Part shown: in pieces, positions 3,277 to 33,749 of the stretch | Numbering within the stretch: position 1 is the stretch's first letter | How the letters are laid out: every line of letters begins with the position of its first letter | DNA from: Chloroflexota bacterium | GTDB taxonomy: Bacteria; Chloroflexota; Dehalococcoidia; GIF9; AB-539-J10 | NCBI GenBank assembly: GCA_030611015.1 | Contig: JAUWQP010000008.1 | Coordinates: 1 to 33,749, forward strand | DNA: 33,749 nucleotides | Direction: 5' to 3' | Program-made: the position numbers and the translations under genes | The notes under the pieces: model-generated | Told to the model about the DNA's origin: nothing | Databases searched by the model: none | Seen by the model: only the letters and a program-made list of their open reading frames with translations

Positions 3277-3684
3277 TTGGCCAGACCTAACAAGATCAAC
3301 GGTGGCAGACCTAAAATCCCCATCGACTTCAGAGAGGTGGAGAAGCTCTGCCGTCTTCAGTGTACTGAGCAGGAAATCGCGGGTTGGTTTCATTGTTCAG
3401 TTGACACAATTGAGAGACGCTGCCGGGAAGAAACTGGTGTTACTTTTGCGGAGTATTTCACGAAGCACAGGGTTACTGGTAAAATAGCCCTTCGGCGCAA
3501 TCTATTCAGACTATCTGAGAAACATCCATCAATGGCTATCTTCTTGGCCAAGAACTGGCTAGGCATGAGCGAGAGACAGGAGCTTACTGGTGCCGGCGGC
3601 GGTCCGATTCAGACTAAGATAATTGTGGCCACACCGGAAGACAAGGCAAACATGGAGCGTACCATCAGTGGAGAGCGAACGTGA
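3277..3684 (+). CDS. terS: Terminase small subunit (probable)
   Basis: A 135-aa protein with an N-terminal helix-turn-helix ('REVEKLCRLQCTEQEIAGWFHCSVDTIERRCREETG', about residues 17-51), then 'LRRNLFRLSEKHPSMAIFLAKNWLGMSE', typical of small terminase subunits that bind the packaging site. It starts with TTG directly after the stop of the previous gene, with AAGG just upstream, and ends in a GTGA overlap with the next small gene. TerL is only one small gene away, which supports the call. Confidence 0.8.
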   Translation: MARPNKINGGRPKIPIDFREVEKLCRLQCTEQEIAGWFHCSVDTIERRCREETGVTFAEYFTKHRVTGKIALRRNLFRLSEKHPSMAIFLAKNWLGMSERQELTGAGGGPIQTKIIVATPEDKANMERTISGERT

Positions 3685-29330: not shown

Positions 29331-29965
29331 CAGAAACATTACCTGATATAAAACACATGCGCGGCGAGATCAAGGACTTTCTTACCGCTAAAGAAGCCCT
29401 AGTAGCCGCTACCATGGCTATTAAGGTGGTGGACGAAGAGACGGACGTGCAAGTCAGTAAATTCCTATCATCGGCACTAGTGCCGTTACGCAAGCAGATT
29501 GAAGCAAAGCGCCAGCAATACTCGACCTCACTACGGCGCCTGGCTACAGAATGGGACAAAGAGTTTAATCCAGCATTACAGGCGATTGACGGCTTGATCG
29601 GGTATCTCAAGCAAGCGAGGCTAGACTATAATCAAATCAAGCAAGAGGAAACCCGGTTGCTGCAAGCGGAGCTCGACCGCAAGGCCGAGGAAGACCGCAA
29701 GGCAGCCGAAGCACGCGGGGAGTTATCACAAATCCCTGAAGACGTGGCGGCCCTGGCCCCTGCTGTCCAAACCACAATCAAGACCGCAAACGGTAGTACC
29801 TCTATCGCGAAGCATCCGTACCTGGACATATACGATGAAGCCAAGCTACCGCGTCAATACCTAATCCCAGACAAGGGCAAAATATGGGAAGACGTCAAGG
29901 CAGGGATAGAAGTCCCTGGTGCTAAACTGGCCTATCGGGAACAGGTTAGTGTAAGGGCAAAATGA
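29327..29965 (+). CDS. Coiled-coil phage protein of the recombination region
   Basis: A 212-aa protein starting with GTG. Residues 40-130 are long helices ('PLRKQIEAKRQQYSTSLRRLATEWDKEFNPALQ', 'LLQAELDRKAEEDRKAAEARGEL'). The C-terminal part ('LPRQYLIPDKGKIWEDVKAGIEVPGAKLAYREQVSV') is a pattern seen in phage proteins coded near recombination genes. It is not an enzyme I can name; an accessory in replication or recombination is inferred from its neighbours. Confidence 0.6.
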   Translation: MTETLPDIKHMRGEIKDFLTAKEALVAATMAIKVVDEETDVQVSKFLSSALVPLRKQIEAKRQQYSTSLRRLATEWDKEFNPALQAIDGLIGYLKQARLDYNQIKQEETRLLQAELDRKAEEDRKAAEARGELSQIPEDVAALAPAVQTTIKTANGSTSIAKHPYLDIYDEAKLPRQYLIPDKGKIWEDVKAGIEVPGAKLAYREQVSVRAK

Positions 29966-30720
29966 AGCCATACTATCAAGATAAGTGGGTAACAATCTAT
30001 CACGGTGATTGCAGGGAGATATTGCCAATGCTGGGAGTGTCGGAACTGAAAGACGACACCCTTTGGGGTGGGCTATGCCATGAGGGTTTGAATCCCTCCT
30101 CCCAGCACCCGCAAATAGATTTGGTATTGACTGACCCGCCGTATTCCTTGCCAGCAAGAATTTCAGGCACAAGGCAGTTGTTTTACCGTTCCCTAACAGA
30201 ATTGAGTATATTGGAATATTTCTTTAGGGATTTCTTTTCGTGGTGTAATAAAGTTGTTAAAGATTCTTCGGTTTATTATATCTTTTGTGATGGGCAGAGC
30301 TACCCCGTATTTTACTCATTGCTCTATGGCTATGTTAAGTCAGTGCGTCCTTTAATATGGGACAAGAAGACTTCAATAAATAGGTATAGTTGGCGACACC
30401 AACACGAACTAATTATTTTTGCAGAGATGGCGAATGCTCCATTGGTGAAAACTGGTGATGGAGATATATTGAGATTTAGTGCTGTCCCTGTGATGGAGAG
30501 AAGGCATCCAGCAGAGAAGCCAGTAGATTTACTGTGTAACTTGATAGCCAAAAGTGCAAAAGCGAATAGTATAATTCTTGACCCATTTATGGGCGTTGGT
30601 TCATCAATAGTAGCTACTAAGAAGCTCAATCGCAAGTCCATCGGCATAGAGATAGAGGAGAAATACTGTGAGATAGCGGCGAACAGATGTCGACAGGAAG
30701 TTATGGAGTTTACCAAATGA
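29962..30720 (+). CDS. DNA N-methyltransferase (beta-type) with an in-frame tRNA-like insert
   Basis: A 252-aa DNA methyltransferase of the N6-adenine/N4-cytosine class. Motif IV is TDPPYS (57-62), preceding motif I at ILDPFMGVGSS (205-215), then 'GIEIEEKYCEIAANR': the beta order. 'HPAEKPVDLLCNLI' is also typical. The start 'YYQDKWVTIYHGDCREILP' is normally followed within a few residues by the strand 'QIDLVLTDPPY'. Here residues 23-49 are extra, and their DNA is a tRNA-like fold (30030-30107). The insert is in frame and stop-free, so a full protein is likely. The role is protection of phage DNA or regulation. ATGA overlaps on both sides. Confidence 0.88.
   Translation: MKPYYQDKWVTIYHGDCREILPMLGVSELKDDTLWGGLCHEGLNPSSQHPQIDLVLTDPPYSLPARISGTRQLFYRSLTELSILEYFFRDFFSWCNKVVKDSSVYYIFCDGQSYPVFYSLLYGYVKSVRPLIWDKKTSINRYSWRHQHELIIFAEMANAPLVKTGDGDILRFSAVPVMERRHPAEKPVDLLCNLIAKSAKANSIILDPFMGVGSSIVATKKLNRKSIGIEIEEKYCEIAANRCRQEVMEFTK
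30030..30107 (+). ncRNA. Class II (Leu-type) tRNA-like element without an anticodon, inside a methyltransferase gene
   Basis: Acceptor: 30030-30037 pairs with 30099-30106 (8 bp). U8 and G9 at 30038-30039. D arm: 30040-30042 with 30054-30056, loop GAACTGAAAGA. Anticodon-type arm: CACCC (30057-30061) with GGGTG (30066-30070), but only a 4-base loop, TTTG. Variable arm: GGC-TAT-GCC (30071-30079). T arm: GAGGG (30082-30086) with CCCTC (30094-30098), loop TTTGAAT. Discriminator A107 followed by CCC. Tertiary pairs are all possible: 8-14, 15-48, 18-55, 54-58, and A19-U56 replacing the usual G19-C56. It cannot decode. A73 and the long variable arm fit leucine identity. Confidence 0.78.
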
Positions 30721-33308: not shown

Positions 33309-33626
33309 ATGAATAAATGCCCAAAATGCGGTAGCACAAGGGTCAGGATAGACTATCCGGAGATTACTTGCATGGCGTGTGGCTGGAGTGAGCCATTGAT
33401 AGACTATCCTATTTCCTATCAGGAACACAGGGTATACTCTAAGACCTTCAATAATATTGATTTAGTGCCTGAAGAACCACCCAAACCTGCTGAACGGGAA
33501 TTTCGATGGGATTATTATGATGTAGATGACAGAATAGGTAAACTTCGGCGCCAGGTAAACATGCTAATGGGTCAATCGGTATACCGACAGCAGAAGCAAT
33601 CCGGACTTCCAAGGATCGATGTATGA
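33309..33626 (+). CDS. Zinc-ribbon protein upstream of the replication ATPase
   Basis: A 105-aa protein. Residues 4-26 are a zinc ribbon (CPKC at 4-7, CMAC at 21-24 followed by GW). The rest is charged and helical ('AEREFRWDYYDVDDRIGKLRRQVNMLMGQSVYRQQKQ'). Its stop overlaps the ATG of the ATPase (position 15 on the circle), so the two are co-translated. It may load or regulate the ATPase; this is inferred from coupling only. Confidence 0.65.
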   Translation: MNKCPKCGSTRVRIDYPEITCMACGWSEPLIDYPISYQEHRVYSKTFNNIDLVPEEPPKPAEREFRWDYYDVDDRIGKLRRQVNMLMGQSVYRQQKQSGLPRIDV

Positions 33627-33749
33627 AGCCCAAAGTCGTGGAGCGGATCGATGGCTACGATATTGTTTGGGAGACTGAGCAAATCACGATATCCGTTACC
33701 CGGTTACACCAGCATATATCTGATGGCCGGGTAACAGGGGAAATACTAA
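33609..33749. repeat. Terminal redundancy, right copy
   Basis: Identical to 1-141. It contains the start of the ATPase gene a second time and should be trimmed when the genome is circularised. Confidence 0.93.
33623..33749 (+). CDS. Replication ATPase, duplicated 5' fragment (assembly overlap)
   Basis: The first 42 codons of the gene at 15-1241, repeated because the window closes a circle. It is not a second gene. Its presence shows that the ATPase is co-transcribed with the zinc-ribbon gene at 33309. Confidence 0.9.
   Translation, partial: MKPKVVERIDGYDIVWETEQITISVTRLHQHISDGRVTGEIL

Follow-up and report, generated by a model that had tools for sequence, protein, structure and literature searches.

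A tRNA-Leu-derived element without an anticodon was found in frame within the DNA methyltransferase gene of a tailed phage, in the 33,749-nt stretch of DNA analysed here (hereafter the window, to which all positions refer). In our preferred reading, which we regard as probable, the element is an insertion whose donor was probably a tRNA-Leu of viral type; its anticodon is gone, and the protein accommodates the element as a disordered loop.

Phage contig and putative host

The window is one whole contig. It encodes terminase, portal, and tape-measure proteins and was thus attributed to a tailed phage. Its two ends (1-141 and 33609-33749) are identical over 141 bp, so the contig is a closed circle and, at about 33.6 kb, probably represents the entire phage genome. 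The contig lies in a 1.79-Mb bin, which represents a putative host only. The tRNA-Leu genes of this bin have the anticodons TAA, CAA, CAG, and GAG, and none with TAG was found, which is possibly a gap given that the bin is 88.6% complete. On a related phage contig (L036:6541-6629), we observed a DUF3800-VII RNA motif (Rfam RF02967, 49.2 bits).

Origin of the element from tRNA-Leu

A tRNA-Leu covariance model was built in this analysis from 14 tRNA-Leu genes. The element matched this class II profile over its full length (model positions 1-84) with 54.0 bits and an E-value of 8.7e-12, as a member of the tRNA-Leu sequence family does, and all 23 pairs of the model were formed with no non-standard pair. 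When the bin was scanned with the model, the element ranked directly behind four genuine tRNA-Leu genes, Ser/Tyr tRNAs ranked just below it, and the best non-tRNA match reached 18.9 bits. Furthermore, its 5' part (30033-30056) is identical at 22 of 24 bases to tRNA-Leu(UAG) genes that occur in many relatives and were confirmed by ARAGORN. The model score, the ranking in the bin, and this identity together point to tRNA-Leu as the origin of the element at 30031-30106, which we consider established by sequence comparison.

General-purpose searches were less decisive. The generic Rfam tRNA model gave 25.4 bits at 30031-30106 (E 0.003 on 341 nt), below its gathering score of 29; nothing was reported at the gathering cut-off, and ARAGORN called no tRNA at the element. 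As approximately 25 bits is a level that other spurious matches in the bin also reached, the generic score would by itself be compatible with a coding stretch that resembles a tRNA by chance. However, with 54 bits to tRNA-Leu and a ceiling of 19 bits for the next non-tRNA sequence in 1.79 Mb, a chance look-alike is effectively refuted, and we assign almost no probability to it.

Anatomy and folding

The original prediction that 78 bases (30030-30107, forward strand), open as 26 in-frame codons, fold as a class II tRNA was borne out by the sequence itself and by the full-length match to the tRNA-Leu model. The features are listed in Table 1.

Table 1 Features of the element and its host gene in the window
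Feature	Position	Strand	Basis
N6/N4 DNA methyltransferase ORF, 252 aa, complete, insert at residues ~24-48	29962..30720	+	PF01555 E 5.2e-28; phrog_67 E 3.2e-46
tRNA-Leu-like element without anticodon loop	30031..30106	+	tRNA-Leu covariance model 54.0 bits; Rfam tRNA 25.4 bits
Probable extent of the insert, 24 codons (25 with CAC 30106-30108)	30034..30105	+	Comparison with the empty site of L052-type genes
Gene-flank bases stretching the acceptor to 9 bp with 30106-30107	30029..30030	+	Folding
Acceptor arm, 5' strand CTGGGAG, partner of 30099-30105	30031..30037	+	tRNA-Leu model; pairing probability at least 0.90 in mRNA context
D arm TCG(GAACTGAAAGA)CGA	30040..30056	+	Similarity to tRNA-Leu(UAG) of relatives
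Arm at the anticodon position, CACCC-TTTG-GGGTG	30057..30070	+	tRNA-Leu model, 5-nt gap in loop
Variable arm GGC-TAT-GCC plus AT, Leu type	30071..30081	+	tRNA-Leu model; probability ~0.8
T arm GAGGG-TTTGAAT-CCCTC	30082..30098	+	tRNA-Leu model and in-context folding
Acceptor arm, 3' strand CTCCCAG	30099..30105	+	tRNA-Leu model and in-context folding

In the tRNA register the acceptor comprises 7 bp, and the pairs G30030-C30106 and T30029-A30107 make it 9 bp. These outermost pairs are formed by the methyltransferase gene's own bases (TGCTG/CAGCA), and the first three bases of the 5' strand (30031-30033) double as a conserved Leu codon of the enzyme. The discriminator A73 of the first description depends on taking the acceptor as 8 bp long; read in register, C30106 occupies position 73 and pairs with G30030. 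The element thus departs from a functional tRNA-Leu gene, which has A73 on a 7-bp acceptor. It also lacks a Leu anticodon and the 7-nt loop with U33 that would hold it. The arm at this position has 14 nt versus 19 in tRNA-Leu (positions 26-44), and its four-base loop TTTG had been predicted to be unable to decode, in agreement with the 5-nt gap in the model alignment and the negative ARAGORN result. The element shares with bacterial and phage tRNA-Leu genes (class II, UAG type) the D arm and loop, the variable arm, the T arm, and the acceptor register, whereas it differs from them in the missing anticodon loop and the arm shortened by 5 nt, in C1-G72 and the 9-bp acceptor, and in its location inside a protein gene.

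The element has a minimum free energy of -37.7 kcal/mol (z -3.95), which 1 of 200 shuffles equalled. In the mRNA context, pairing probabilities were at least 0.9 for the acceptor and T arms and approximately 0.7-0.8 for the anticodon-position and variable arms. The D arm was divided between two registers: the canonical Leu register of the original prediction exists, but its probability is 0.35, compared with 0.6 for an alternative. Seven pairs, with 13 changed stem bases between them, differed from the closest tRNA-Leu(UAG) of host type, and all 20 pairs compared remained intact. Judged from this comparison, the unbroken pairs show that the lineage was at some time under tRNA selection, either before or after the insertion.

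An insertion-tolerant loop of the methyltransferase

The ORF matches the PF01555 profile and carries the DPPY and DPFxGxG motifs of N6/N4 DNA methyltransferases, with the invariant DPPY, HPxxKP, and DPFxG columns retained. We compared it with 80 viral and 22 genomic relatives, plus others from related genomes, about 75 of which were readable over the spacer between GDC and DPPY. This spacer has 47 residues here and 21-24 in almost all of the readable relatives, which confirms that the element sits where related enzymes have almost no spacer. The alignment also revealed an empty site in L052, which is 88% identical over the upstream flank (63/72 nt) and has no insert. The exact borders of the insert given in Table 1 are estimates from aligning the gene with empty sites, that of L052 among them, which have 22-23 residues from GDC to DPPY.

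Longer spacers of other kinds occur in four relatives, namely L092 (33 residues), L084 and L090 (43 residues each), and L229 (51 residues). The inserts of L084, L090, and L229, approximately 20-30 residues in the same loop, are not tRNA-like; that of L229 folded no better than shuffles and that of L084 formed a plain hairpin rather than a tRNA. Relatives carrying a segment of similar size that cannot fold this way had been named as evidence against the prediction, and these three inserts touch on that point in part. Given that the inserts of the four relatives are unrelated to the element, the loop between GDC and DPPY is, on this sequence comparison, insertion-tolerant. AlphaFold gave a mean pLDDT of 83 and a pTM of 0.82 for the enzyme with a pLDDT below 50 at residues 28-45, and the insert is accordingly predicted to form a disordered loop.

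Two observations concern these relatives in their own right. The inserts in L084:5001-5732, L090, and L229:3001-3714 are cysteine-rich (CxxC). The contig L092, whose methyltransferase has an 11-residue insert, also contains a tRNA-like fold at 3592-3669 (28.7 bits, ARAGORN negative), with additional pairs closing its anticodon-position arm.

Only one frame of the element is stop-free, and it is the one used by the methyltransferase; the same frame is also open in several intact tRNA-Leu(UAG) genes. As the contig is metagenomic, a tRNA sequence could conceivably have been misjoined into the gene during assembly. We consider such an artefact highly unlikely, given the in-frame and stop-free position, the self-closing of the contig via its 141-bp repeat, and the lack of any identical sequence elsewhere in the bin as a source of the misjoin.

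The A19-U56 pair and the donor

The elbow pair 19-56 of tRNA is nearly universally G19-C56. The element has A19 (A30049) facing T56 (T30089), and this change on both sides had been taken as a compensatory change arguing for selection on the fold. The change itself is real, but its interpretation did not stand. A search for A19 with a TTTGA T loop matched six viral contigs (L243-L248). In five of them (L244-L248, of which L245 and L246 are near-identical) ARAGORN called a tRNA-Leu (anticodon taa or tag) at the site, and the T loop starts with TTTGA as in the element; the gene in the sixth (L243) was called tRNA-His(gtg). Over 393 genomes of the class, the only match was the window, with none in the other 392. 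A control pattern with G19-U56 was found in two viral contigs only (L249 and L250), in a Ser/Leu-like tRNA with a long acceptor, and was thus of little use as a control. In view of the anticodon-bearing viral tRNA-Leu genes, A19-U56 is not a change peculiar to this element and no longer argues for selection on its fold; the apparent compensation is explained by the A19-U56 of viral tRNA-Leu genes and not by the in-gene setting. Since the pair occurs in ordinary viral tRNA-Leu genes whereas the tRNA-Leu genes of the bin have G19-C56, A19-U56 was probably inherited from the donor, and the donor was probably a viral-type tRNA-Leu.

A19-U56 in L243-L248 seems to be a variant of the elbow pair that recurs among viruses. 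The two contigs with the control pattern carry Ser/Leu-like tRNAs missed by ARAGORN (L249:747-835 and L250:1528-1616), with GGA in the loop, G19 facing U56, a 9-10-bp acceptor, and two additional bases before the 3' strand.

According to our preferred reading, tRNA-Leu-derived DNA, probably from the A19-U56 viral lineage, would have been inserted into a surface loop of the phage methyltransferase, the one joining the helix GDCREILPML to the motif IV strand. About 5 nt around the anticodon would have been lost from the element; removal of 5 nt in one step from a stem-loop ACCCT-TTnnnnn-GGGGT could have produced the present arm. The outcome would be an in-frame, stop-free spacer of 24-25 codons forming a disordered loop in the protein, and the tRNA shape would persist in the mRNA by inheritance from the donor as a structural relic, presumably without a function as RNA. 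Of the four possibilities raised at the outset, the tolerance of the site, the predicted disorder, and the empty site in L052 most favour the last, an insertion of tRNA origin that the protein tolerates as a loop. Three points speak against this reading. The helices are perfect despite 13 stem differences, and inheritance would require the true donor to be an unsampled tRNA. The outer pairs come from gene bases, and a plain relic would form them only by luck. No donor with more than about 75% identity to the element was found from which its history could be traced.

Search for further copies

No second copy of the element was detected in its own bin, in 198 relatives (which gave partial matches, a good number of these within genuine tRNA-Leu genes), in the 392 other genomes of the class, in phage and plasmid records, or in viral contigs, and a pattern for a shortened tRNA-Leu found no other copy across 84,980 genomes. 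These searches are bounded by DNA similarity of about 70% and by the patterns used, and lower similarity or copies outside the patterns would be missed. The closest viral pattern matches were ordinary tRNAs.

The precise in-frame insertion, the stable fold, and the open frame might suggest one copy of a small mobile palindromic element of tRNA origin. Rickettsia palindromic elements (RPEs), which are structured DNA lying in frame in protein genes and tolerated as an added peptide (PMC10969869), offer a precedent, and the element is likewise a structured in-frame insert in a protein gene. However, RPEs form repeated families of approximately 150 bp with a conserved peptide, whereas the element is a single copy of 72-78 nt that derives from tRNA-Leu. 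With neither several copies in one genome or its relatives nor a target-site duplication seen, it does not belong to a visible mobile family, and we judge such an origin very improbable.

The element also resembles tRNA pseudogenes or remnants of phages and islands, being tRNA-derived with decoding lost, but its helices are all intact and it is translated in frame in a conserved gene. No integrase was identified among the proteins tested, no att site was seen beside the element, and a near-identical tRNA 3' half, as expected of a phage attachment site, was not found in the bin. Elsewhere, a 54-nt tRNA-like piece with only the acceptor and T arm (L104:96-149) is possibly a tRNA remnant.

A possible role as RNA and implications

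The fold might instead be a working RNA element in the mRNA, subject to cleavage by RNase P or tRNase Z, bound by LeuRS, or acting as a decoy for tRNA-targeting defences. Every pair is retained although the anticodon is gone, the acceptor reaches 9 bp with the help of flanking gene bases, the pairing probability in context is high, and A107-C108-C109 could, from the sequence, replace the RCC of a tRNA 3' end. On the other hand, no result of the analysis favours processing, charging, or a decoy function, viral tRNA-Leu genes account for the argument from A19-U56, the 3' end is concealed in a 9-bp acceptor, the case is single with no conservation and no second copy, and cleavage would destroy the phage's own mRNA. 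We therefore regard a working RNA as unlikely, and doubtful too is a mimic of tRNA-Leu without anticodon that is retained for enzyme control or as a decoy while its DNA also encodes a protein loop. Interferon alfa 5 mRNA is a comparable case: it is reported to have tRNA-like features and to be cut in vitro by RNase P (PMC4565877). Both have a tRNA-like fold inside an mRNA, but the element is a true tRNA derivative rather than mimicry.

The literature covered, which was partial, yielded no account of a tRNA without an anticodon as an in-frame insert of a phage gene. Under the preferred reading of a tolerated tRNA-Leu-derived insertion, the element clearly exemplifies how part of a tRNA gene can become protein-coding sequence in a conserved phage gene, with the tRNA shape minus the anticodon still foldable. 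It thereby offers a clean natural substrate with which to ask whether a tRNA shape lying within a message is acted on by RNase P, tRNase Z, the CCA-adding enzyme, or LeuRS.
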